This document shows positions 49,923 through 64,000 of a DNA stretch of 64,000 bases, piece after piece; position 1 is the first letter of the stretch, and each line of letters begins with the position of its first letter. The notes beneath the pieces are model-generated. The model made no database searches. It saw only the letters and a list, made by a program, of their open reading frames with translations, and was not told the DNA's origin. Position numbers and translations under genes: made by a program. This DNA comes from Deltaproteobacteria bacterium. Its GTDB lineage: Bacteria > Desulfobacterota > Desulfuromonadia > Geobacterales > Pseudopelobacteraceae. Where the stretch lies: positions 1 through 64,000 of the forward strand of contig JAJYCS010000002.1 in the NCBI GenBank assembly GCA_021778115.1, read 5' to 3'.

Positions 49923-51008
49923 TTACGCCGCCTCTTGCAGTTCCTGCTCAGCGCCGAACAGCTCGTCGAAGATGGCCTGCACGGTGGTGATCCGGTCGGC
50001 CTTCCAGGCGTTGGTGCCGCAGAACACCAGGCCGGTCTCCACATCGCCGCGCTGGGCCCGATCCAGGGCGGTAACGATGCAGAACCGTTCCCCGGATTCC
50101 TTGTAGGTGCACTTTTTCAGGCAGCCCATCCGGCAGACGGTGTGGTGGTCCAGGTCGTACTGGCGGATTTTGGGGGTGCTGGTCAGGATGGCCCGGCCCG
50201 GCAGGCCGGCCGGCGACATCAGGAGACCGATATCCTCCTTGGTGCAGTTCAGGTAGGCCTGCTTGAACTCCGGTGCCGCATCACACTCCTCGGTACAGAC
50301 GAAACGGGAGGCCATCTGCACCCCATCGGCCCCTTCGGCCAGGGCATGCTCCAGGTCGGCCCGGTCCCAGATGCCGCCGGCGGCGATCACCGGGACGTCA
50401 CTGTGGTACTCTTCCAGAAAAAACTGTTTGATGGCGCGGACGGTGGCGTACTGGTCATATTCGCCGGTGCCGATATGCTCAAGCTTCTCCCCCAGATGGC
50501 CGCCAGCGGTATCCGGGTCCTCCACCACCACCGCGTCTGGCAGCCGGTGGTAGCGCTTTTCCCAAGTACGGGCGATCAGCTGGGCGGCCCGCAGTGACGA
50601 GGCGATCGGCACCAGGGCCACATCAGGGGCGTGTGCCGCCAGCTCGGGCAGCGAGAGCGGCAGGCCGGCCCCGCAGACCACCACCTGGGCTCCGGCCTCG
50701 ATGGCGGCCTTGACCAGGGCCTCGTAGTCGGAGAGCGCCACCATCACGTTGACGCCGATCACGCCGTCCGGCGCAATGGCCCGGGCCTTCCTGATCTCGG
50801 TCTGAAAGGCCTGCACCTCGGCCTGGAAGTAGTTGGCGCCGGTGTAGTGGTCGCTGTTCAGGGCGATGCCGGCCGCCGCCACCAGTCCTATGCCGCCGGC
50901 CTTGGCCACATGGCCGGCCAGCCGGCCGCCGGAGATCCGCACCCCCATGCCGCCCTGAATCAGCGGGTACGGGACGGTATGGTTGCCCAATTTCAACGGT
51001 TTGATCAT
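49923..51008 (-). CDS. Nitronate monooxygenase / FabK-like FMN protein
   Basis: ATG 51008 MIKPLKLGNHTVPYPLIQGGMGVRISGGRLAGHVAKAGGIGLVA; VIAAGGIWDRADLEHALAEGADGVQMASRF. Confidence 0.88.
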   Translation of the reverse strand: MIKPLKLGNHTVPYPLIQGGMGVRISGGRLAGHVAKAGGIGLVAAAGIALNSDHYTGANYFQAEVQAFQTEIRKARAIAPDGVIGVNVMVALSDYEALVKAAIEAGAQVVVCGAGLPLSLPELAAHAPDVALVPIASSLRAAQLIARTWEKRYHRLPDAVVVEDPDTAGGHLGEKLEHIGTGEYDQYATVRAIKQFFLEEYHSDVPVIAAGGIWDRADLEHALAEGADGVQMASRFVCTEECDAAPEFKQAYLNCTKEDIGLLMSPAGLPGRAILTSTPKIRQYDLDHHTVCRMGCLKKCTYKESGERFCIVTALDRAQRGDVETGLVFCGTNAWKADRITTVQAIFDELFGAEQELQEAA

Positions 51009-51230
51009 CCTCGTCACGGCCTCCTGCTTGGACTGGTTACCCTGTAGCATAGCAAGGCCGGGCGTCGACCGGTGTAATAGTTGTGTAAAAACGTTTATTT
51101 TAATGAAAAACCCCAAACCAACACCCCGCAATCCACCCCCCTCAAAAAGAAATAAGTCTTTATATTCCGAATACTTTTGTCTATAATCCGTCTTAATGAA
51201 TATATTTTCACTTTAAGCCAAGTCGCGGTT

Positions 51231-51441: not shown

Positions 51442-52197
51442 TCAAGAGCGGCTTCGGTACCATTGTTTCACCTTGCGTAGTGGCTTACAAGGGACTGTCC
51501 ATGGGTATGGCAGCAAACCGTTGACCAGCCAGGCCTTCCAGTCCATGGCGTGGGCCTGCAGTCGGCTGTTGAGGGAACGATTGCTGGCCCCCCCAGATCG
51601 CATGCTTACCAGCAGGTAAGGTAGGTAGGCTGCTTGGAGTCGATGACGTAACAGATAGCGCAGCATGAGCTCGTAGTCTGCTGCTGTACCAAGATCGAGC
51701 CGATAACCGCCATATTGCCGATACCATTGCCGCCTAACGAAGAAAGTCGGGTGTGGGGGCATCCAGCCAAAATACAGCTTACGCCGGGTCAGTTGGCCGG
51801 CGCGCCAGGAGCGGGTTACGCGGTTCGGATGGCATGCATCAACATAGACCAGATCACCATAGCAAGCATCGATGGTGCCAGTAGCAAAAACCGCCGCAAC
51901 TCTGGCCAAAACCTCACGGTCGGCATACTGATCATCGGCATGGAGAAAACCGACCACCTCGCCGGTGGCCAGGGCAAGTCCCTTATTCATCGCATCGTAC
52001 AGTCCCCGGTCCGGCTCGCTGAGCACCGTAGCAATCTTCTCCCGGTACGGTGCGAGTTGTGTGAGCGTCCCGTCGCAGGATCCTCCATCAATTACTAGGT
52101 ATTCGATATCAGGATAGCTTTGTTCACATACTGAGCGTGCTGTTGCTGCAATAGTCTCCTGGCTGTTCAGGCTGACGGTAATCACTGAGAGTTTCAC
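51442..52197 (-). CDS. Glycosyltransferase family 2 (WcaA/PGF-type)
   Basis: MKLSVITVSLNSQETIAATARSVCEQSYPDIEYLVIDGGSCDGT. Confidence 0.9.
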   Translation of the reverse strand: MKLSVITVSLNSQETIAATARSVCEQSYPDIEYLVIDGGSCDGTLTQLAPYREKIATVLSEPDRGLYDAMNKGLALATGEVVGFLHADDQYADREVLARVAAVFATGTIDACYGDLVYVDACHPNRVTRSWRAGQLTRRKLYFGWMPPHPTFFVRRQWYRQYGGYRLDLGTAADYELMLRYLLRHRLQAAYLPYLLVSMRSGGASNRSLNSRLQAHAMDWKAWLVNGLLPYPWTVPCKPLRKVKQWYRSRS

Positions 52198-52203
52198 ACC
52201 TGG

Positions 52204-52932
52204 TCACCGCCTCTGCTCAAAGATACGCTGCATCAGGCTGCGCAGCAGCTGGTAGCGCAGCATGATCTTCTGCCACAAGGAATAACTGCTGCGGCCAGCT
52301 GCTGTCGAGGCGGCACCATTGTGGCGCCGGTAAGCCACAAGCTGTTCAGGATAAAAACAGGTCTGACCATACCATTCGGCCACCAGGCCAAGCCAGATAT
52401 CGTGCATAGGGACAGATGGAGGAATAGGTCGGGCGTTTTCCAGTAATGTGCGACGGAAGGCCATGCAGCAGCCGAGGTAGGAGTTACGTATAAAGTTAGC
52501 CCAGAAACCGGGCCGTGAGTGGTGTTGGGCAAAAAAGGAAGGAGCGATCTCAATTCCCTCCTCGTCAATGAGAGTGCAGTCGCTCACCACGAGATCAAAG
52601 CTCTGGAGCAGCTGTACGACGGTTGTTATTTTATCCCGGTGCCAGATGTCATCTTGGTCGGCAAGGAAGATGAAATTATGACGTGCGTGCGCGAGGGTAC
52701 AGTCAAAGTTGGAAACGGGGCTTCGAGGGGCGGTGGATCGTTCTAAGAGTCTGATGCGGGGGTCAGCAAAGGCTTTGATGAGATCCACCGTTTCGTCCGT
52801 AGACTGGTCATCGGAGACAATCACCTCATCATCGGCATGCAGCTGACACATAATTGACCTGAGCTGTTCTCCGATAAAACGAGCGCCGTTGAAAGTAGCC
52901 ATGCAGACCGATACCGGTGGTCGTTCAGGCAT
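52204..52932 (-). CDS. Glycosyltransferase family 2
   Basis: VSVCMATFNGARFIGEQLRSI...VIVSDDQSTDET...FLADQDDIWHRDKI. Confidence 0.9.
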   Translation of the reverse strand: MPERPPVSVCMATFNGARFIGEQLRSIMCQLHADDEVIVSDDQSTDETVDLIKAFADPRIRLLERSTAPRSPVSNFDCTLAHARHNFIFLADQDDIWHRDKITTVVQLLQSFDLVVSDCTLIDEEGIEIAPSFFAQHHSRPGFWANFIRNSYLGCCMAFRRTLLENARPIPPSVPMHDIWLGLVAEWYGQTCFYPEQLVAYRRHNGAASTAAGRSSYSLWQKIMLRYQLLRSLMQRIFEQRR

Positions 52933-53875
52933 AAAAATACAAGCTCACAGTACGGTACCACGCCTGCTTATGAATACCATGCCGGGCCAATACAAACTTC
53001 CTAAAAAAAGGACTATACGCCGACAATTGGGCATAGTCTTGGATAACCCGCCTATTTGCCGTTGAAATATCAACGTCATAACGCTGTAACAACGCAGCGG
53101 CCTGTTTTTGTGTGGCACCTAATTCTCGCCGTATCATCTCCCCATTCGTCCCTAGCCTATCCAACATCAGCTTCCACCAGGCACGCGCCCCCACATCATT
53201 ATGGTGATGTTGTCTATAGAGGACTGTTGATGAGTGTAGTCCGCTCATATGACCGCCAAAGGCGGCTACCGTCAAAGCAAACCACCAGTCGTGCATCAAT
53301 GGCCCTTGTTCAGGCATCGGCATCACCAACTTGAGAGCAGCCCGATTCACCATCATCGTGCATCCGGTTACGATATTTTGTGCCAAAAGCACCTGCAAAT
53401 GGTTAACTGGCGGCTTCATCTGCTGATATCGCCAGAAAGAAGGGGCTATTTCGGTTCCATCTTTTGCGACAACCTTAAGGTCAGTATAGACAAGACATGG
53501 CCGATCATTACCGTATGCCCCTTCAAGTCGCTGCATCTCAGACAGAGTCATGTGAATCTTGTCAGGCAGCCAGACATCATCCTGATCGCAAAACATCAGA
53601 TAATCGCCACCCACAAACTCCAGCAGACGGACAAAGTTCTTACAGGCCCCCAACTTGTTGCCAGCGGATCGTACCATGCGTACAGGAAAAGGGCTTGTTG
53701 CAGCAAAATCATCTAGTATCCTACAGGTGTCATCCTGCGATACATCATCCCCGACAATCAATTCGTTGGGCAATAACGTCTGCTCAGCCAGTGATGCTAA
53801 CTGTTCCCTCAAGTAAAGAGCACCATTACAGGTAGCAAGTATGATGCTTACACCGGGGACTTGCACTATTGACAT
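52925..53875 (-). CDS. Glycosyltransferase family 2
   Basis: VSIILATCNGALYLREQLASLAEQTLLPNELIVGDDVSQDDT...FCDQDDVWLPDKI. Confidence 0.9.
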   Translation of the reverse strand: MSIVQVPGVSIILATCNGALYLREQLASLAEQTLLPNELIVGDDVSQDDTCRILDDFAATSPFPVRMVRSAGNKLGACKNFVRLLEFVGGDYLMFCDQDDVWLPDKIHMTLSEMQRLEGAYGNDRPCLVYTDLKVVAKDGTEIAPSFWRYQQMKPPVNHLQVLLAQNIVTGCTMMVNRAALKLVMPMPEQGPLMHDWWFALTVAAFGGHMSGLHSSTVLYRQHHHNDVGARAWWKLMLDRLGTNGEMIRRELGATQKQAAALLQRYDVDISTANRRVIQDYAQLSAYSPFFRKFVLARHGIHKQAWYRTVSLYFYA

Positions 53876-53942
53876 CCTCCTTGGTCTGAAAGCCTGAGAT
53901 TCCTGCGGTGCTTAGGTCCGGCATTGAGCCGCCCCCAGATCC

Positions 53943-54869
53943 TTAGCAGCAAAGCAGTGAGTCACGTACCTTTGCCATGCCGACAGCCAGCGGCACCAAG
54001 GGTTGCCAGCCCAACTCTCGTCGAGCCAGGGTGATATCAAGAATATTGACGGGTACATCGCAGACCCGTGCTGGCAGATAGGTGCAATTGATCGCATTTC
54101 CGAGCAGGAGACGTAGATGGTCCAGCAGATCGTTGAGGCTGTGGCCGGTGCCGCTGCCAATATTAAATATTCGTTTTGTGCCCGTGTAGTCGATGGTCGT
54201 CAGTATGGCGTTGATTACGTCGTCGATATAAAGGTAGTCGCGCACCACTGTGCCGTCGCCCCATATTTCCAACTGTTCGTGCTGTAAGGCTTTGTGGAGA
54301 AACACGGGGATGACACCTTGACCTGAATGCAGGGACTGCTGCTCGCCATAGGGATTGGCCAGACGTAGGATGCGATAGTCGAGACCATGCAGGTAGCGGT
54401 AGAGGGCCAGATACTTTTCAATGGCCAGCTTACCGATACCATAGGCGCAAACCGGATTGGTTGGATGTTCCTCATTGATAGGAATGGTGCGTGGAATACC
54501 GTATACTGTACCACCGGAAGAGATGAAGACAATACGTGGCGGTTTAGGCTGCTTTCGTATGAGATCAAACAACTGCAGGCTTCCCCCTACATTACCATGC
54601 AGGTCGTACAGAGGGTTCTCATTGGATGTTCGTGGTAAGGTGGTGCTGACCAGATGAACGACGAGATCGGTCTCTGCCAGTGCAGTTGTGAGATCCGCAG
54701 TATTGGTGAAGTCTCCTGCCTGCCAGGTGACCCCGGCAATAGCCGGCCAATCGACCCGTCCTCCGGCCGGCAGCAGGTCAAGAGAGGTGACCGCATGGCC
54801 AGCCGCAATCAGAGCTGCACAGAGATGTCGACCGATAAAGCCGGCGCCACCGAGAACGAGGGTATTCAT
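53943..54869 (-). CDS. NAD-dependent epimerase/dehydratase (extended SDR)
   Basis: MNTLVLGGAGFIGRHLCAALIAAGH; Tyr/Lys motif YGIGKLAIEK. Confidence 0.9.
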   Translation of the reverse strand: MNTLVLGGAGFIGRHLCAALIAAGHAVTSLDLLPAGGRVDWPAIAGVTWQAGDFTNTADLTTALAETDLVVHLVSTTLPRTSNENPLYDLHGNVGGSLQLFDLIRKQPKPPRIVFISSGGTVYGIPRTIPINEEHPTNPVCAYGIGKLAIEKYLALYRYLHGLDYRILRLANPYGEQQSLHSGQGVIPVFLHKALQHEQLEIWGDGTVVRDYLYIDDVINAILTTIDYTGTKRIFNIGSGTGHSLNDLLDHLRLLLGNAINCTYLPARVCDVPVNILDITLARRELGWQPLVPLAVGMAKVRDSLLCC

Positions 54870-56125
54870 TGGGCCGCCTTCTGTCGGATGGTTTCGAGAT
54901 GGGTTTCGACCTGACCGATCATCCGGGAGAAGGTAAAGGTGCTGGCATACTGACGTGCCTGTGTAGCAACACGGGTACGCAGCGGGTGGTCTTGTGCGAG
55001 CCTGATTGTCTGTGCAGCCAGTTGAGATGCGAGCCCTTTCCCAAAGAGCATGCCGGTAATGCCGTTTGTAATGATCTCTGGATTGCCCCCCACTGTAGAG
55101 GCCACGGTGGGGATCCCAGCCTGTAGGGCATGGATGAGCGTCAGTGAAAACGGTTCATAAAGTGAGGGGAAAAGATAGAGATCATGAGTCTGGAACAATT
55201 GAAACAGATCGGTTTCGGGGACGGCAGGGGCAAAGGTGACCGCTGATGTGAGTCCCAACTCTTGGATCCGGTTGCGTAGTTGTGCAAGATAGGGTTGATC
55301 GCGGTCATCTCCCACAATGGAAAGTTCTACCTGTAGCATAGGTAACCCCTTTATGATCTGGGGCAAGGCTTCGATAATGGTATGGCATCCTTTGATTTCC
55401 ACGACGCGTCCGGCGAACAACAGCCGCAATTTCCCCTCATAGAGAAGACGAGAACGGTCGGCAAACGGCATGGGAGCAGCCAGAGGCGCGGTAACGCCAT
55501 GGTGAATGATCGTGCTCTCGGTGAATCTGAACCCGGCGTCATGGTAAAGTTGCTGCATGAAGTGGCTGGCAAAGATGGCGGAACCGCGCAATGGCGGGAT
55601 AGTTGTCAGCGCACCGGCAAAAGTTCTTTTTATGCGTCGTAGTAATGCGGTCAAACCTGGAGGGCGCCCATATACCTCATGGCTGAAGTATTGGGCGATG
55701 AAGTTGCCGTTGTAGAAGGCAATCAGCCAATTGTCGGTCAGGAGATAGACAAGTCGTCGGCCTGAGCGTTCCAGTGCGGTCAGCAACGACACATCGTAAA
55801 AATGGAGATTCCAGACAAAGACGAGGTCGGGGTCCTGTTCAGCGAGGACCTGGTTAAGCAGCTCGACGTTGTGCTTGTTAATTGCATCCCGGTCTTCTGC
55901 CGATGGGGTGAAGGGCTGGTAGATATTTCCGTTAGTGGCCAGGAGGGTGAGAGAGCGTAGCACCTGCTGGTTGGCGTAGTCAGCCTGCTTATCACCGTAG
56001 CTGCTGGTCAGTACAACAACAGTGTGTCCCTTTGCGGCCAAGGAACACATAACCTCGAAGCAGAGAATTTCGTAACCGCCTACGGCGTTTGGTGGATATA
56101 GGTTGCTGAGCGCTAAAATTTTCAT
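54866..56125 (-). CDS. Glycosyltransferase family 4
   Basis: MKILALSNLYPPNAVGGYEILCFE...LRLLFAGRVVEIKGCHTIIEALP...LFPSLYEPFSLTLIHALQAGIPTVAS. Confidence 0.92.
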   Translation of the reverse strand: MKILALSNLYPPNAVGGYEILCFEVMCSLAAKGHTVVVLTSSYGDKQADYANQQVLRSLTLLATNGNIYQPFTPSAEDRDAINKHNVELLNQVLAEQDPDLVFVWNLHFYDVSLLTALERSGRRLVYLLTDNWLIAFYNGNFIAQYFSHEVYGRPPGLTALLRRIKRTFAGALTTIPPLRGSAIFASHFMQQLYHDAGFRFTESTIIHHGVTAPLAAPMPFADRSRLLYEGKLRLLFAGRVVEIKGCHTIIEALPQIIKGLPMLQVELSIVGDDRDQPYLAQLRNRIQELGLTSAVTFAPAVPETDLFQLFQTHDLYLFPSLYEPFSLTLIHALQAGIPTVASTVGGNPEIITNGITGMLFGKGLASQLAAQTIRLAQDHPLRTRVATQARQYASTFTFSRMIGQVETHLETIRQKAAQ

Positions 56126-57030
56126 CGTACGGCTCCTGCCAGGAATCGTCGGAAGGCCTCGTCATCTTGCCAACTATCGACTTTGAGTCTGTCTGCCGGC
56201 AGCTGTTGCTGATAATATTTGAAGAAGAACAAGAGTAGACGGGTCAGGTTGTGGCGTTCGGTGATGTTGGCCAGCCGTGCAAGATACTGCCAATCCTCTG
56301 CAGCACCTATTTGCCAGGCAAAAAAAGCCACGACGGCTGCCCACTCTTGTTTGACCTTCAAGGTGCCTTCGCTGATAGTATTTGCTGCATGGATGCGATA
56401 GTGCAGCAGCGGTTGTTCCAGCAATTTTATCTTTTGGCCATGCAGGAGTAGGCGAAGAAAAAAGTCAAGGTCATGGGCGTAGCGCAGGTTGGCGAAATGT
56501 CCTACCTCGTCGAAAACGGCTCGCCGAATGAAGAGATTGGAGGTGGTCATCAGGAAATTGCCGTTGATAAGCGCCAACGCCAGATCCTGTTCGTGACGAT
56601 AGAAGGTCAGCGCTTCTTCATACCATGTATTGCGGCATGGTTTCCCTTGCGCATCCAAGAACGTCAGCGCCGAACACACCGCTGCCGTGCCGGGCATCTG
56701 TGCCATGGCCTGCATACAGGTCTCAAAGCGCTGGGGGTGGTAGCAATCGTCGGAATTGAGGATGGCGATGTAGGTGCCACTGGCTCGTTTAAGGCCGGCA
56801 TTGATCGTGGCATGGGCCCCCTGGTTGGGGTGTGACCAGGCGATGATGCGGGGGTCATGCTGAGCTCGTGCCTGCACCCGTTGGAAAGAACCGTCAGTAG
56901 AACCGTCATCCACTATGATAATCTCACAAGGCGCAATCGTCTGGGCCATGATGCTATCGAGCGCAGCGTCAATAAACTTTTCGTGATTATAAAGCGGTAT
57001 TACGACCGATATGGTGGTGTCTGGAGGCAC
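56122..57030 (-). CDS. Glycosyltransferase family 2
   Basis: ISVVIPLYNHEKFIDAALDSIMAQTIAPCEIIIVDDGSTDGS. Confidence 0.92.
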   Translation of the reverse strand: MPPDTTISVVIPLYNHEKFIDAALDSIMAQTIAPCEIIIVDDGSTDGSFQRVQARAQHDPRIIAWSHPNQGAHATINAGLKRASGTYIAILNSDDCYHPQRFETCMQAMAQMPGTAAVCSALTFLDAQGKPCRNTWYEEALTFYRHEQDLALALINGNFLMTTSNLFIRRAVFDEVGHFANLRYAHDLDFFLRLLLHGQKIKLLEQPLLHYRIHAANTISEGTLKVKQEWAAVVAFFAWQIGAAEDWQYLARLANITERHNLTRLLLFFFKYYQQQLPADRLKVDSWQDDEAFRRFLAGAVR

Positions 57031-57050
57031 GCAGCTTCTCTCAAATATCT

Positions 57051-60000
57051 TTATTTTAGTGCCCGGAAAAGGAGCTGTTCACCCCCCAGATAGCCAAAAT
57101 GTTCCGACCAATAGCCATAGGCCACTACGTCCCGGAAACCTAACTCACGCAACTCGTCCAACAGTTTCCAGCCGAAGTGGTAAAAACAGAGGCATCCATC
57201 GTTATTGAGCGGATCACCGTGGTATTCGGGGGGGAGCAGATGGTGGATCTGCCCGGTTTCATCAAGTTTGGCCCGTATGGTATGGTTGGCTGCACGGTGG
57301 TCAAAAGGCACCGTAAAGAACAGGGTACCACCCGGCTTCAGGCAACGCAGACATTCCTGAAATGCTTGCCGATAGTTGGGAATATGTTCTATCACGTCAA
57401 AGGAGAGAATGGTATCGAGACATTCATTGGCAAATGAGAGGGCCGTGAGGTTCTCGTTGCGCAGACCGGTGTGATCTACCCCGCCAGGTGGCACGGTGTC
57501 CCCTAGATATTCACTGCCGATCACCTGTGCATAGTTGCGTTGGAACCAGGCGAAGAGGGTTGTCGTTTGTTCGGTCAGGTAGATGCGGCTCTCCGGAGTT
57601 GGGGCACCCAGTAAATGGAAGAGATGGATCGCGGCCCGCATTCTGTTGTTGAGGTGGCATTCCGGGCATACAACCCGTTCGCGCCAATTGGGAACAATGC
57701 TGCCATCCGGCTGTGGGAAGCCATACTTGAGGTCGCTGTGGAAGGACATTTCACCTCCGCAGACGAAGCAAAAACCATGGGTGACTATCGGTTCGTTGGC
57801 GCTAGCCAGGTTGGTTTCCGTCTCGTGGTAATATTGTCGTAGCAGGGTGCGGTCCGGATGTTGATATGCATCTTGAGAAGCAAGTCGTTCTAGATATAAT
57901 CCGTTCCTCGGCGGGTTCGGCAGCATATTTTTGAAAATTCGTTCAAAGCCCTGGGCTGCCGCATCCAGTGAGAACTTCCGGTGCGCCAGTTCTCGGCCGC
58001 CCCTAGATAGGCGCTCCCATAAATTTTGATCATGGTGCAGTGTCAGTACGGCATCGGCAAATGACCTCGGTGTATCGGCCACCAGAACCTGTTGGCCCGG
58101 CACCGCCCCCATCCCCTCGACGGCGATTGAGGTGCCGATGCATGGGACACCATAGGACATGCTGGTAACCAGCTTGCCTTTGACGCCGGCACCAAAGCGC
58201 AAGGGGTTGACCGATATCCTGACTTTATGCATCAGCTCGGTCAGATCAGGTACAAAACCGTGTATGACTAAGCAGTTACTCGTAAGTGCGATCAGTTCAG
58301 GGGGAGGATTGCTCCCCACTACGTGAAAAATAAGATTGGGATCTTGAGCTGTGATCAGTGGCATAATCTCCCGGACAAAATAGATCACAGCATCCACATT
58401 GGGTTGGTGCTCATAGCCACCGATAAAGATCAGCCCGGACCGTTCCCCGAACCCAGCCTCACAAGCAAAGGATTCACTGACCACGGGGATTACCTCGACG
58501 TATAGCCTCGGATTTTCCGCCAGCAGCGTGTTGCGTTCCTGCTCACTCACGACAATGGTACAGTCCACCGCTGCTGCAATACCTAACTCCTGCTCCTTGC
58601 GCCAGCGCGCATGCGCAAAAAGTTCCTCCCGCTGCGGCTCCCGCTGTTCTAGTGCTGCTTGGCGCTCTTCGCGGACATAATGCAGATCGTGGGTTTCGTA
58701 AAGCAGGCGAGCTTGGGGACAATGTGTGCGCAGCAACGGCAGCATTGCTGCGGTGAGATCAGGCCGACACGAGAGGATTAGGTCATATGAGGCACCTTCC
58801 ACAACGAGATGTTCATACAGGGAGTGCACCATCGGGATATGTAGGCATTGCACGCCCATGGCCTGCAATGCCGGGGTGTAATCAGGGTCATAGGCCAGAT
58901 CGGCCGGGAAAAAGGTCAGGGCGTAGCCTCGTTCACGGAAGATCCGAATAAAGTTGAAGATCATCACCGAACCGGCATCTTGGTTGGGCCGGGGGACAGA
59001 ACGCTCCAGCAACAGTATTCTCACCGGTGCCTCATCCATTGCCCTCCGGGTAAAGGGGGTAACTTGAGAGGCAGTCGCCATCGGGTTTGTCGGATGTTCG
59101 TATGCCGCAGGATGTAGTCCGGGCAGGGAGTTCCGATAATACCACCCGCGCAGAATAGCCTTACGGGAGGGGGAAAGGGGTAGTCGTCGGTACGCATGGT
59201 GCAACGTTTCCAACAGGTAGTGACGCATCTCTCGGGCAAGTCGGCCGGCCCAGCGTACTGGCCTTGTCATACGCCAGGAGCGAGAGGCATACATCGCCTC
59301 CAGTTCAGCCTGTCTCATCGCCTGGGCATCCCTTGACTGGTTTAACTGTTCCGTCAGCCGTCCTTCCGTTTCCGTCAGCCGCCCTTCCGTTTCCGCCAGC
59401 CGTCCTTCCGTTTCTGTCAGCCGTCCTTCCGTCTCCGTCAGCCGTCCTTCCGTCTCCGTCAGCCGTCCTTCCGTCTCCGTCAGCCGCCCTTCCGTTTCTG
59501 TCAGCCGTCCTTCCGTTTCTGTCAGCCGTCCTTCCGTCTCCGTCAGCCGTCGGTTGTGGTAGTCTAAACATGCTTGCAGATCATAGACAGTCTGGTGATG
59601 GAGGTCGGCGACCGCCTTCCATTCAGTCGGAGTGAGCAGATGGAGCCATTTTCTAAAGAGGTCTTCAGCCGCATGCGCCACCGTATCGGCATCGGGAGCA
59701 AGTGGCGATACAGCCGAATCTCCCCCTAGATAATATGTGGCGGTAATCCGATCAACAAAGTGGAAAGGGGCAATGCGTGACGCCTGGAGCCAGAAATCCC
59801 AATCTTCATAGCAGGTAAGAGTTTCGTCGAACCGAACTCCTTTTTTCAAAAGGGAAGCGGGAAACAGTACGGCATGGATTGGGATGACGTTTCCCAAGAG
59901 AAGTTTTGGGAAGTGTACTGTTGACTCGTTAAAGGTTTTGAGAACCGTCCGGGCGTTGTCATGACGTCTCAGTCCTTTTACGCCGCTATATACCACCACG

Positions 60001-61070
60001 TCTGGCAGCTTGGTCTGGAGAGCCGCAACCAGAGCGTAGATATGATCAGGGTCCAGGGTATCATCATCATCAAGAAAGCCGATATATCGTCCCCGGGCCT
60101 CCTGAAGCCCCCGATTGGCCGCAACGGGTCGGGACAGCGGTTCTCCTTCCCGATTGATCAGCCGCAACGGAAACGGGCCACAGTGCTCCGGCAGGGACGC
60201 ATGCAGCCCCCCCTTGGCGTTGACTACGACCACTTCCAGGTGGGGCCAGGTCTGCAGGGCCACGGAGTTGAGGGCGTCGTGCAGGGTGGGACGGTCCATG
60301 CTGCGGATGATGATACTGACCAGCGGCAGATCGTCGGGCAGGGCGATCAGGCCGGCATCGTGCTGTCGCTGGTATTCGGAGCGGAGAAAGGAGAGGGCCC
60401 CCTGGCGCAGATCTTCGGGAGTGTAGTGTTCAAAGGCCTCCGCCGCCTCAACGGCGGCCGGCAGGGTGAAAGTGCGGAAGGTGTTCAGGCCGTCGACCTG
60501 GCGATCATAACGCTGTCTGGCCAACTGGGAGGTGAAGCAGGCCATGGCGGCCTTTTTTTGTTCCCGCACGGCACTGATATCAACCAGGAAGTTGGGGCGC
60601 AGCGGCGCACTGGTCTCGTACTGCATCAGCGTGGCCCGTCCCTGGCGGCGCAACGCCTCGATGACGGCAATGGCCGTGGCCCGATGGTCGGGGTGGTTTT
60701 CCCACAGCGAGGGGGCATAGACCAAGGTGGCGTTGTTTTCTTCAACAGCAGCCAAGATCGTCTCCACCAGAGCCTCGCCGTAGCGTAGTCCGCGGTCAGG
60801 CAGCCCCCAGCAGAGCGGCGTGTCGTACCCCAGCACCAAGGCCGCCTGTTGGCTCTCCGCAAGCCGTGTCGTTTGATCGCCGGCCTGGGCGCCGTCGGTG
60901 AGGATGATGACCACCACCTGGTCTCCCTGACGCCGGTGGAGGGCCAGGACACCGCCGCAGCCGAAGACCTCGTCGTCGGCGTGGGGCGCCAGCACCAGCA
61001 CCGTGCCGGCCTTCGGCACCGGCTGTGCGGTATAGGGTATCAGCGCCTGTTCGTTCAAAAGATCTCCCAA
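57051..61070 (-). CDS. 1339-aa fusion: PIG-L deacetylase, GT2, RLTETEG heptad-repeat coiled coil, GT4-like, Cys-cluster and SAM methyltransferase
   Basis: VLAPHADDEVFGCGG (PIG-L); PLVSIIIRSMDRPTLHDALNSVALQTWPHLEVVVVNA (GT2); nine RLTETEG repeats; LIFIGGYEHQPNVDAVIYFVREIMPLI (GT4); CLDTILSFDVIEHIPNYRQAFQECLRCLKPGGTLFFTVP (methyltransferase). Confidence 0.9.
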   Translation of the reverse strand: MGDLLNEQALIPYTAQPVPKAGTVLVLAPHADDEVFGCGGVLALHRRQGDQVVVIILTDGAQAGDQTTRLAESQQAALVLGYDTPLCWGLPDRGLRYGEALVETILAAVEENNATLVYAPSLWENHPDHRATAIAVIEALRRQGRATLMQYETSAPLRPNFLVDISAVREQKKAAMACFTSQLARQRYDRQVDGLNTFRTFTLPAAVEAAEAFEHYTPEDLRQGALSFLRSEYQRQHDAGLIALPDDLPLVSIIIRSMDRPTLHDALNSVALQTWPHLEVVVVNAKGGLHASLPEHCGPFPLRLINREGEPLSRPVAANRGLQEARGRYIGFLDDDDTLDPDHIYALVAALQTKLPDVVVYSGVKGLRRHDNARTVLKTFNESTVHFPKLLLGNVIPIHAVLFPASLLKKGVRFDETLTCYEDWDFWLQASRIAPFHFVDRITATYYLGGDSAVSPLAPDADTVAHAAEDLFRKWLHLLTPTEWKAVADLHHQTVYDLQACLDYHNRRLTETEGRLTETEGRLTETEGRLTETEGRLTETEGRLTETEGRLTETEGRLAETEGRLTETEGRLTEQLNQSRDAQAMRQAELEAMYASRSWRMTRPVRWAGRLAREMRHYLLETLHHAYRRLPLSPSRKAILRGWYYRNSLPGLHPAAYEHPTNPMATASQVTPFTRRAMDEAPVRILLLERSVPRPNQDAGSVMIFNFIRIFRERGYALTFFPADLAYDPDYTPALQAMGVQCLHIPMVHSLYEHLVVEGASYDLILSCRPDLTAAMLPLLRTHCPQARLLYETHDLHYVREERQAALEQREPQREELFAHARWRKEQELGIAAAVDCTIVVSEQERNTLLAENPRLYVEVIPVVSESFACEAGFGERSGLIFIGGYEHQPNVDAVIYFVREIMPLITAQDPNLIFHVVGSNPPPELIALTSNCLVIHGFVPDLTELMHKVRISVNPLRFGAGVKGKLVTSMSYGVPCIGTSIAVEGMGAVPGQQVLVADTPRSFADAVLTLHHDQNLWERLSRGGRELAHRKFSLDAAAQGFERIFKNMLPNPPRNGLYLERLASQDAYQHPDRTLLRQYYHETETNLASANEPIVTHGFCFVCGGEMSFHSDLKYGFPQPDGSIVPNWRERVVCPECHLNNRMRAAIHLFHLLGAPTPESRIYLTEQTTTLFAWFQRNYAQVIGSEYLGDTVPPGGVDHTGLRNENLTALSFANECLDTILSFDVIEHIPNYRQAFQECLRCLKPGGTLFFTVPFDHRAANHTIRAKLDETGQIHHLLPPEYHGDPLNNDGCLCFYHFGWKLLDELRELGFRDVVAYGYWSEHFGYLGGEQLLFRALK
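59360..59548. repeat. Nine tandem 21-bp units inside the fusion gene, encoding (RLTETEG)n
   Basis: Consensus + strand unit GTCCTTCCGTCTCCGTCAGCC, 9 x 21 = 189 bp, plus a partial unit on the left. Confidence 0.95.
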
Positions 61071-61768
61071 TTCTGCCAGGCAGCGGGATGCCGCCGGATA
61101 TGTCGTTCAAGTGCCGCCAGGTACCGTTGCCCCAGGGGGGGCGTCCCGGCGGTGGGGGCCGATCCTCCCTGCAGCGGTTCCAGATGCAGGGAGTAGTTGC
61201 CCGATGATGGTTCCAGATGGAATCCTGCAAAATATACCGGTGCGTCTTCTTTTTCAACCAGCCGGATGACGCCGCCCGGTATCTGCAGCTGTCTGCCGAG
61301 GAACGGGTAGACTTGGTTCGCCTGCTTCGGTTCATTGAAGTCGCAAAACACCAGCAGCAGTTGCCGGGAGGCCAGGGCTTGGCGGATACCCTGCAGAAAA
61401 GTGCGCCCTTGGTTGTTGAAGAGCCATGCCCCGCCGTTTAGGTTCGTTGCCGTGGCTTCGTTCAGCTGCAGGGTGAAGTGGTACAGGTAATCGTCGGCGC
61501 TGAAGGCGGTGGGGGGATTGCCGACCGGGAAGCTGGCCAGCCCGGTGGTCTTGCAGAAGCTGATCAACAGGTTGTGGTGGTAGGAATGGTGGGATAGGAA
61601 CACCGCGCCGGTCTGGCCGATGCGGGCCAGCAGCTCTGGCTGTTCCACCCGGACATGGCGCTGGAACCAGCCGCAGGGGGTATGGGCCAGCCGCCAGGCC
61701 ATCTGTACCGCCACGCCGCTGCTCTCACACAAAAGTCGGAACTGCTCTCCAGCGGCCGTGCTGCCCAA
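61055..61768 (-). CDS. LpxL/HtrB- or lysophospholipid-acyltransferase-like protein; 5' end unclear
   Basis: AVFLSHHSYHHNLLISFCKTTGLASFPVG... and LLLVFCDFNEPKQ. Reading frame stays open upstream to 61963 but has no ATG/GTG/TTG before TTG 61768. Confidence 0.5.
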   Translation of the reverse strand: MGSTAAGEQFRLLCESSGVAVQMAWRLAHTPCGWFQRHVRVEQPELLARIGQTGAVFLSHHSYHHNLLISFCKTTGLASFPVGNPPTAFSADDYLYHFTLQLNEATATNLNGGAWLFNNQGRTFLQGIRQALASRQLLLVFCDFNEPKQANQVYPFLGRQLQIPGGVIRLVEKEDAPVYFAGFHLEPSSGNYSLHLEPLQGGSAPTAGTPPLGQRYLAALERHIRRHPAAWQNWEIF

Positions 61769-61937: not shown

Positions 61938-62894
61938 TTAGTGATAGTCGGTATCGCCGCTGGTCAGCCACCAACGGCCGGCAAAACGTTGCGGATTGCC
62001 GCCAGAGCTGAACGGGTTGGCCATGATCCGCAGCTCCATCCGGTCATTGCGCAGCGCCTCGTCGGCAAAGGTCGTCCCGTGGTGTTCGGTGAGCCAGAGG
62101 GTCAGGGTCTGGGCTCCCCAGTCTGCCAGGTGCTGGCGGGCGGCCTGGATCAGGCGTCCCATGAGGGCGGGAGGGGCCACCATATCAACCAGTTCCACCT
62201 GTTCCCCCTCGCGGCGGGTGACGATGACCCCCAGCGGTCGTCCGCCCCACCACGGCCTGACCAGGGAACAGGTATAGCGCAGGGTGGGATGGCCGAAATA
62301 GCGGTCATCCAGATAGGGGGCATCGCGGACGACGATCAGATCATCCCCCAGCGCCTCGGCCATCCCCTGCCAGAGCCGGTCTACCAGGGGGCGGAAGGTG
62401 TCGTCCGGGCGGGGACAGGGGATTACCCGGTCGGCGCGCCAGGAGCGGGGCAGGGGGGCAAAGGTGAGCAACTGCATCTGGTCGATGGCGCTGAACAGCC
62501 CCAGTCGTTCCCCCAGGCGCATGGCGCGGTCGCTGGGAAAACCGAAGGCCAGGGCGTCCGGGTTTTGCGGCGTCGCCAGATCATCCAGCATCCGTTGGAT
62601 CACCAGGGCAAAGGGGGCGGATCGGCCCAGCCCCCCCCGGCCGCCCGGCACCGCCATCAGGTCACCCATATGGGCGATCCGGCGTAACTGGCCATCGGCC
62701 AGGGCGCGGCGGTAGGAAAGGCCGCAATGCACCAGCAGCTCGCCGTTATCGCCAAAATAGCCGTAGGCGGCCCCTCGTCCGGCGCCATACTTCCACTGCA
62801 GCATTGCCAAGGAGATATCGCCGCCGAATACCTGCCGGAACAGGGGAGGGATCAGGGGGAACTGCTCAGCGGTGAGCATCCGCACCTGGTTCAT
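61938..62894 (-). CDS. GNAT-like N-acetyltransferase
   Basis: ATG 62894 MNQVRMLTAEQFPLIPPLFRQVFGGDISLAMLQWKYGAGRGAAYGYFGDNGELLVHCGLSYRRAL...; 4-bp overlap with the ABC gene. Confidence 0.65.
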   Translation of the reverse strand: MNQVRMLTAEQFPLIPPLFRQVFGGDISLAMLQWKYGAGRGAAYGYFGDNGELLVHCGLSYRRALADGQLRRIAHMGDLMAVPGGRGGLGRSAPFALVIQRMLDDLATPQNPDALAFGFPSDRAMRLGERLGLFSAIDQMQLLTFAPLPRSWRADRVIPCPRPDDTFRPLVDRLWQGMAEALGDDLIVVRDAPYLDDRYFGHPTLRYTCSLVRPWWGGRPLGVIVTRREGEQVELVDMVAPPALMGRLIQAARQHLADWGAQTLTLWLTEHHGTTFADEALRNDRMELRIMANPFSSGGNPQRFAGRWWLTSGDTDYH

Positions 62895-64000
62895 GGCCGG
62901 CTGCCCCCGTCGGGCTGTCGCCACTGGTGGGGGAGAAAGACCACCCCCTTCTCCAGATGGGGTTGGGTCATCTCAAAGGAGACAGCGGTGGTCACCTGAT
63001 CATAGAGGTGGATCATCCGTTCGCAGGTGAGGTAGACGGCCATATAATACCGTCCGCGCATGAGCGGCAGGCGGGGGAAACAGACCTCCACCGTCCCCTG
63101 GCCGGACTGGTCGCGGCAGAGTGTAATCCCTTCAAAGAGGGAGCTGCAGCTGGAAACGGTACTGCCGGTCTCGGAAAACAGCTCGAATGCCACCGTCGGA
63201 GGCGCCAGGGCCGGATCTGACGAGAAGGTCACCGCCACCCGCAGGTCGTCCTCCCCGGAACGGAACACCCGGCACTCCCGTGAGAGGCTGCCGCAGACCT
63301 CGATCCGCTCAATGCCGGCCTCCCCTTTTCGTACTTGGGCGGTCGGTGGTGCGACACCGTCATGACGTTTCGTTGTTGCGGCGGAACAGGCGATCGCCTC
63401 CTCTTCCAGCGAGGTCCGGAAGGCCGCCAGCACCGAGGCTGGCTTCCCCTGGGCAACGGGCCGCCCTTTTTCCAGCCAGAGCACCTGGTTGCAGAGCGCT
63501 TCCACCTGGTACAGGGAGTGGGAGCAGAACAGGATCGTCACCCCGCGCTCTTTCAGCTCCATGATCCGGTCGAAGGACTTGCGGGCAAAGGCGCCGTCAC
63601 CCACCGACAGCGCCTCGTCGATCACCAGGATATCCGGCTCCACGCTGGTGGCGATGGCAAAGGCCAACCGGACGTACATACCGCTGGAATAGGTCTTCAC
63701 CGGCTGGTCGATGAACGCGCCGATGCCGGAGAAGGCCACAATGGCGTCATAGCGCTGCGTGATTTCGGTCTGGGTCAGCCCCAGCACCGAGGCGTTGAGA
63801 AAGACGTTCTCCCGGCCGGTGAACTCCGGATTAAACCCGGCCCCCAGCTCAAGCAGCGCTGCGACCCGCCCCCGCACCTGCAGTTTCCCTTCGGTGGGGG
63901 AGAGGGTACCGCAGATCAGCTGCAACAGCGTCGATTTGCCGGCCCCGTTGCGGCCGACAATACCGAACACCTCCCCTGGCGCTATCGTGCAGGAGATATC
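62891..64000 (-). CDS. Polysaccharide ABC transporter ATPase (Wzt-like) with C-terminal Wzt-C-like domain; 5' end outside window
   Basis: GRNGAGKSTLLQLICGTLSPTEG, TYSSGMYVRLAFAIA, DILVIDEALSVGD; frame open to the window edge. Confidence 0.9.
   Translation of the reverse strand, partial: DISCTIAPGEVFGIVGRNGAGKSTLLQLICGTLSPTEGKLQVRGRVAALLELGAGFNPEFTGRENVFLNASVLGLTQTEITQRYDAIVAFSGIGAFIDQPVKTYSSGMYVRLAFAIATSVEPDILVIDEALSVGDGAFARKSFDRIMELKERGVTILFCSHSLYQVEALCNQVLWLEKGRPVAQGKPASVLAAFRTSLEEEAIACSAATTKRHDGVAPPTAQVRKGEAGIERIEVCGSLSRECRVFRSGEDDLRVAVTFSSDPALAPPTVAFELFSETGSTVSSCSSLFEGITLCRDQSGQGTVEVCFPRLPLMRGRYYMAVYLTCERMIHLYDQVTTAVSFEMTQPHLEKGVVFLPHQWRQPDGGSRP

Follow-up and report, generated by a model that had tools for sequence, protein, structure and literature searches.

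A multidomain glycan-enzyme gene and its neighbors

The DNA analyzed here, referred to throughout as the window, is a 64,000-nucleotide stretch of contig JAJYCS010000002.1 (positions 1 to 64,000, assembly GCA_021778115.1) from a deltaproteobacterium of the family Pseudopelobacteraceae. Near its end lies an open reading frame (ORF) in which a PIG-L deacetylase and a family 2 glycosyltransferase (GT2) are followed, in order, by a heptad-repeat coiled coil, a basic SRSWRxT segment, a family 4 glycosyltransferase (GT4) and a methyltransferase-like domain with a four-cysteine (Cys4) patch.

57051..61070, minus strand: multidomain glycan-enzyme ORF, 1339 amino acids (aa); TTG start at 61070, stop at 57051
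60366..61013, minus strand: PIG-L/LmbE deacetylase domain, about residues 20-235; zinc motifs H30-A-D32-D33-E34 and H126-P-D-H129
59631..60338, minus strand: GT2 (GT-A) domain, about residues 245-480; DDDD 334-337, E422-D423
59289..59624, minus strand: coiled-coil spacer, about residues 483-594; heptads over about 110 residues, from sequence
59349..59551, minus strand: in-frame 21-bp minisatellite, 9.7 copies, encoding RLTETEG heptads
59151..59285, minus strand: basic amphipathic segment SRSWRMTRPVRWAGRL..., about residues 596-640; other members end or switch C-terminus here
57876..59048, minus strand: GT4 (GT-B) domain, about residues 675-1065
57657..57770, minus strand: Cys4 (CxxC...CxxC) putative zinc site, C1101/C1104/C1135/C1138
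57054..57818, minus strand: class I methyltransferase-like domain, residues 1085-1339; no GxGxG loop

All four enzyme domains pass the Pfam cut-offs: PIG-L at residues 25-139 (2.8e-22), GT2 at 253-366 (5.9e-15), GT4 (Glyco_trans_1_4) at 880-1014 (1.9e-20) and Methyltransf_11 at 1202-1252 (8.3e-11). Given these scores, and because the N-terminal half recurs elsewhere with 47-51% identity, the domains are not due to chance. An initial annotation had described a 1339-aa ORF with four enzyme classes, a heptad linker and a cysteine patch, and the ORF limits, Pfam matches, tandem repeats and invariant cysteines bear this out. The TTG start is consistent with the Sulfuricurvum homologue. Several NCBIfam families, TIGR03087 and BshB1 among them, match the ORF, every one below its cut-off.

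The deacetylase has the PIG-L/LmbE fold with HxDDE and HPDH zinc motifs, and the GT2 has a DxD metal motif and an ED catalytic-base motif. In an alignment of 23 family members, the active-site residues of both domains are retained in 20-23 of the 23, with H30, D32, D33, E34, P127, D128 and H129 (PIG-L) and D334-D337, E422 and D423 (GT2) nearly invariant; H30 is altered in one member and H126 in three, neither of them in the window protein. An AlphaFold2 model of the PIG-L core, with a predicted local distance difference test score (pLDDT) of about 85-95, resembles 2ixd, BshB and diacetylchitobiose deacetylase. When PIG-L-GT2 was modeled from an alignment of four sequences, the PIG-L part was good and the GT2 part poor. 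The GT4 has a C-terminal donor-binding domain with a conserved GAGxKGK and a downstream Glu; as read off the alignment, Thr takes the place of the second Glu of the usual E-x7-E. Judged by their motifs, the deacetylase and two glycosyltransferases of the initial annotation look intact. Degeneracy, which that annotation had named as grounds for doubt, does not extend to PIG-L, GT2 or GT4; the methyltransferase-like domain is the one without its S-adenosylmethionine (SAM) loop.

This loop (E/D-x-G-x-G-x-G) is missing from the window domain, which has YLTEQTT instead, and from the aligned homologues. Its absence is normal for the Cys4 methyltransferase-like subfamily, which includes stand-alone genes and viral-contig members. 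C1101, C1104, C1135 and C1138, just N-terminal of the methyltransferase-like core, are invariant across six aligned homologues. The model of the domain reaches a pLDDT of only 61.5, and Foldseek matches it to class I SAM methyltransferases with E about 1e-7 and template modeling (TM) scores of 0.35-0.46. Viral contigs L191-L197 encode homologues of the Cys4 methyltransferase-like domain, likewise without the glycine-rich loop. Searches of viral contigs returned only distant methyltransferase and PIG-L/GT2 relatives; matches on L112, L118, L120 and L162 extend over both query regions, PIG-L and GT2, with identities near 30%, and may be independent neighbors or fusions.

The genes around the ORF are those of a glycan cluster.

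61055..61768, minus strand: LpxL-like acyltransferase; homologues match Lip_A_acyltrans; 16 bp overlap with the ORF start
61938..62924, minus strand: GNAT-like acyltransferase; homologues match Acetyltransf_9
62891..64000, minus strand: Wzt ATP-binding cassette (ABC) ATPase with Wzt_C domain; continues to contig position 64135
51442..57030, minus strand: downstream low-GC genes (GT2, GT4, epimerase, three GT2)

Upstream of the ORF, the LpxL-like acyltransferase, the GNAT-like protein and Wzt follow in this order, and Wzm and a WecA-type transferase (PF00953) come after Wzt, past the window end. The exporter of the cluster is Wzm/Wzt, the Wzt having a C-terminal carbohydrate-binding domain (PF01061, PF00005, PF14524), in agreement with the earlier description, in which a Wzt-type exporter adjoins a glycan-assembly enzyme of several domains. 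For the LpxL-like and GNAT-like neighbors, a solved structural relative was sought and none found.

The N-terminal and C-terminal halves are exchanged

The PIG-L-GT2-coil half is found in three phyla with differing C-terminal halves; the named genera behind this spread are Sulfuricurvum (Campylobacterota) and Xenophilus and Zoogloea (Pseudomonadota), besides the window’s own phylum. A PIG-L-GT2 profile has strong matches in 4/277 genomes of the class and about ten of 297 of the phylum, as well as in Sulfuricurvum and, within the order of Xenophilus, in several of 399 genomes. Behind the coil stand GT2-GT2 (genome G014, Sulfuricurvum and others), RgpF-HAD (G582), WbsX-GT4-GT2 (G814), the GT4-methyltransferase half of the window protein, or nothing at all (Xenophilus, G193). 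In G193, PIG-L-GT2-coil and RgpF-HAD are separate adjacent genes, and the RgpF-HAD protein is 51% identical to the fused G582 version.

Each of the four C-terminal types occurs both behind PIG-L-GT2 and behind a methyltransferase: GT4-methyltransferase in the window and G261 (61% identity), WbsX-GT4-GT2 in G814 and G107 (45%), GT2-GT2 in G462 and G469 (48%) and RgpF in G582 and G134 (28%). The alignment begins near the coil in three of the four pairs. G261, a genome of the same family as the window’s, encodes methyltransferase-coil-SRSWR-GT4-methyltransferase, which matches window residues 483-1339, and its next three genes (GT2, GT4, epimerase) share 70-71% identity with those downstream of the window ORF. 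Because both the GT4-methyltransferase half and the next three genes match, the two genomes have a chain-building block in common and differ at the N-terminus. The architecture is modular: the PIG-L-GT2-coil half of the window protein is found again with varying C-terminal halves, and its GT4-methyltransferase half reappears in G261 behind a methyltransferase. The initial annotation’s assembly line, in which sequential reactions act on one substrate, finds no support here, the halves being freely recombined and, in some genomes, encoded by separate genes.

Among loci with sufficient flanking sequence, most include Wzm/Wzt, and a GNAT-like gene is usual. Some sister loci, as at L092:9722-11671, have the GNAT-like protein joined to a methyltransferase at its N-terminus, another candidate glycan-modifying enzyme. 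In G014, a WsaF family rhamnosyltransferase gene (PF21374/PF22772; L037:16062-17351) stands directly after the PIG-L fusion gene, and WecA, a type I secretion ABC gene, Wzm and Wzt lie upstream (L201).

Base composition changes within the window ORF itself.

60158, no strand: composition breakpoint near codon 305; G+C at third codon positions (GC3) 0.81 before, 0.58 after

This step bounds a low-GC island (51442-60158) with GC3 of about 0.5-0.6 vs 0.8-0.9 around it, which begins within the GT2 domain and stops before the gene at 49923-51131 (GC3 0.83). A chimeric assembly is an unlikely source of the step, since other genomes have the fusion too and G261 has the 3' half with the next three genes. 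In a PIG-L tree the window protein groups with Sulfuricurvum and Xenophilus, and in a GT2 tree with members of its own class. Approximately unbiased (AU) tests reject the alternative placements with p of 9e-5 in one case and below 1e-100 in the other, values that are optimistic because the clades were chosen after inspecting identities and trees.

The coil contains DNA repeats and is followed by a basic segment

Tandem Repeats Finder reports the 21-bp unit of the window coil at 9.7 copies with 92% matches. Tandem repeats of 21 or 42 bp were found in 8/23 members, always inside the coil, vs 4/248 other ORFs (p = 3e-7), and the repeated heptads (RLTETEG, KDEQIAA, RQISEKD, AISDQHK) are unrelated between members. 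Heptad duplications are favored in coiled coils. The coil repeats show recurrent expansion and contraction, and by themselves do not show length selection. After the coil, family members have the segment SxSWRxT(x)PLR; in the window protein the helical moment reaches 0.52 at residues 602-619, vs a protein median of 0.21 and a 95th percentile of 0.41. By analogy with WbdD, this basic segment is probably membrane-proximal.

An S-layer-type protein is encoded at the locus

Past the Wzt/Wzm end of the cluster lies a gene for a 1210-aa homologue of the Caulobacter S-layer protein RsaA (contig 69591-73223; L035:6792-10424), matched over 585 residues (PDB 6p5t/5n97, E 3.6e-35), and the same locus encodes a serralysin/SapA-like RTX protease (L035:3404-5017). 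No type I secretion gene was seen in the 22 kb of this contig beyond the window. S-layer-like genes stand divergently beside Wzm-Wzt in L092-L095, L249 and L250, S-layer-like and type I secretion genes surround many family members, and a type I secretion ABC gene is present in sister loci including that of G014. The S-layer-like protein of L250 has no match to solved structures, so the term RsaA-type applies to the window’s locus only.

In Caulobacter, RsaA is reported to be anchored to smooth lipopolysaccharide (LPS) (PMC3034196). The glycan of the window cluster is probably smooth-LPS-type or S-layer-associated, given the RsaA-type S-layer protein encoded at its locus. Together with the Caulobacter anchoring, the RsaA homologue and the surrounding S-layer-like and type I secretion genes suggest that the glycan may carry or anchor the S-layer.

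A possible capping role for PIG-L-GT2

In characterized ABC-dependent systems, a coiled-coil ruler carries a terminator at its distal end and polymerase modules at its other end; in Klebsiella pneumoniae O12 and O7, terminator and polymerase are joined in one polypeptide, and O7 orthologues occur with and without C-terminal glycosyltransferases (PMC11231755). We read the window protein as part of a modular assembly of a Wzm/Wzt-exported glycan, in which PIG-L-GT2 would be the cap module, the coil a ruler, and GT4 with the methyltransferase-like domain the chain side, and we hold this reading with almost even confidence. PIG-L-GT2 is placed as the terminator because the layout fits the characterized systems and because its N-terminal slot alternates with methyltransferases; as methyltransferases are a known terminator type, exchange with them supports a cap role.

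Under this model, the end of a lipid-linked chain would receive from the GT2 an amino sugar such as N-acetylglucosamine (GlcNAc), whose acetyl group PIG-L would then take off, leaving a sugar that is perhaps re-acylated by the GNAT-like neighbor. The product would be a non-reducing-end cap that halts growth. The coil would set the cap module at a distance from the chain-building GT4 and the glycosyltransferases of the downstream genes; chains would then be capped only once they are long enough, and each 21-bp repeat gained or lost would shift this distance by one heptad. The methyltransferase-like domain at the C-terminus would act on the chain without capping it. A more far-reaching proposal, that PIG-L-GT2 is a new class of terminator, halting growth through an added amino sugar whose acyl group is removed or exchanged, and itself exchanged with methyltransferase terminators before the same polymerases, with a ruler tuned by slippage and a cap or chain that anchors an RsaA-type S-layer in bacteria distant from Caulobacter, seems to us rather unlikely.

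PIG-L deacetylates in glycosylphosphatidylinositol synthesis, and BshB in bacillithiol synthesis. PIG-L families use small GlcNAc glycosides, which would suit a role in chain initiation: GlcNAc-PP-undecaprenol would come from a WecA-type enzyme, PIG-L would deacetylate this primer or the first adaptor sugar, GT2 would add an adaptor, and the coil would be a scaffold only. The PF00953 WecA-type gene in the loci of the window and G014 points the same way, and a constant start with variable polymers also accounts for a constant N-terminus and variable C-termini. We nevertheless consider this improbable, as an adaptor enzyme needs no long spacer and the slot is filled in sister proteins by methyltransferases, which at that position are terminators in characterized systems. 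A similarly small probability attaches to PIG-L-GT2 working within the polymerase, where GT2 would add one sugar per repeat and PIG-L would deacetylate it to give a cationic or re-acylated repeating unit. Single-protein polymerases with several glycosyltransferase modules are common, and GT2 relatives without PIG-L make GT2-coil-glycosyltransferase proteins in the same clusters; a polymerase module should, however, change with the polymer, and PIG-L-GT2 is constant before four unrelated glycosyltransferase sets.

The initial annotation had the C-terminal methyltransferase methylate the chain end, thereby capping it and setting its length. Methyl caps are known in the WbdD and WsaE systems, the Wzt_C domain is present, and the structural model fits class I SAM methyltransferases. 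Yet the domain has no GxGxG loop, its place beside the polymerase modules is on the other side of the coil from that in every characterized case compared, and G261 retains it while having a second methyltransferase in the terminator slot. This version of capping is probably wrong, the least likely of the readings considered, and the cap is better assigned to PIG-L-GT2.

Several observations weigh against PIG-L-GT2 as a cap module set off by a ruler. The RgpF pair (G582/G134) aligns weakly, and from before the coil. In clusters such as L093 and L095, close relatives of the GT2 that lack PIG-L adjoin the fusion gene; G493 and G425 encode PIG-L as a protein of its own, and the two are also apart in Zoogloea. 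Because both are found apart, their pairing is not obligatory. Some PIG-L loci hold an extra methyltransferase that could make the cap, and the RLTETEG heptad is only weakly coiled-coil-like. A Wzt_C domain that reads the cap would be expected to vary along with the N-terminal module, which in general it does not: in a mirror-tree test, PIG-L distances track Wzm and the Wzt nucleotide-binding domain more closely than Wzt_C. The glycan cassette travels together, with no special link between PIG-L and Wzt_C. Wzt_C was dropped as a marker of cap type, strong relatives being present in methyltransferase-type loci as well; in G261 it does track the N-terminal module, with 21% identity to the window’s Wzt_C and no profile match.

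If PIG-L-GT2 does cap these chains, a deacetylating terminator would join the methyl, methyl-phosphate and Kdo (3-deoxy-D-manno-oct-2-ulosonic acid) terminators now known, and sister proteins with one polymerase and different caps would be a natural swap series for testing the fit of cap, ruler and exporter. Slippage of the 21-bp repeat would be a simple genetic route to altered surface-glycan length, of which we found no report in the literature searched. In at least three phyla, a connection would be drawn between ABC-exported glycan loci and S-layer-like proteins, and the anchoring of S-layers could then be tested in organisms other than Caulobacter. The exchangeable halves are natural parts for glycoengineering.

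Comparison with known systems

The initial annotation had asked whether such an architecture is already common. The layout is indeed known; the deacetylase-plus-glycosyltransferase front is of an undescribed kind, no description of a PIG-L-GT2 terminus having been found in the literature searched. The N-terminal domain has the fold and zinc motifs of BshB and diacetylchitobiose deacetylase, which are stand-alone enzymes acting on small substrates. The locus resembles the Caulobacter RsaA/smooth LPS system (PMC3034196) in its RsaA homologue and SapA-like protease and, in many sister loci, type I secretion ABC genes; it differs in that no type I secretion gene was seen in the 22 kb of its contig past the window.

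WsaE of Geobacillus stearothermophilus (methyltransferase-glycosyltransferase-glycosyltransferase; PMC2943079) is likewise trifunctional and encoded just after wzm-wzt in a lower-G+C S-layer glycan cluster, and a WsaF homologue stands after the G014 member. Its methyltransferase is N-terminal, whereas that of the window protein is C-terminal; it has no PIG-L and serves a Gram-positive S-layer glycoprotein. WbdD of Escherichia coli O8/O9a (PMC3482155) also has a catalytic module followed by a coil, with Wzm/Wzt export, and resembles the members that end after the coil (Xenophilus, G193), but has a methyltransferase/kinase cap and a separate polymerase, WbdA. In WbbB of Raoultella/Klebsiella O12 (PMC11231755, PMC9587256), an N-terminal glycosyltransferase for the terminal sugar, a coil and C-terminal glycosyltransferases form one chain, an order that the window protein would share; in WbbB, no deacetylase accompanies the Kdo transferase that acts as terminator. 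K. pneumoniae O7 ORF6 (methyltransferase-kinase, coiled coil, GT2, GT2; PMC11231755) shares with the window protein an N-terminal non-polymerase module, a central coil and C-terminal glycosyltransferases, a cluster with Wzm/Wzt, and homologues with and without the C-terminal glycosyltransferases. In place of the methyltransferase-kinase N-terminus of ORF6, the window protein has PIG-L-GT2, together with a GT4-methyltransferase C-terminus and a spacer of 21-bp DNA repeats.

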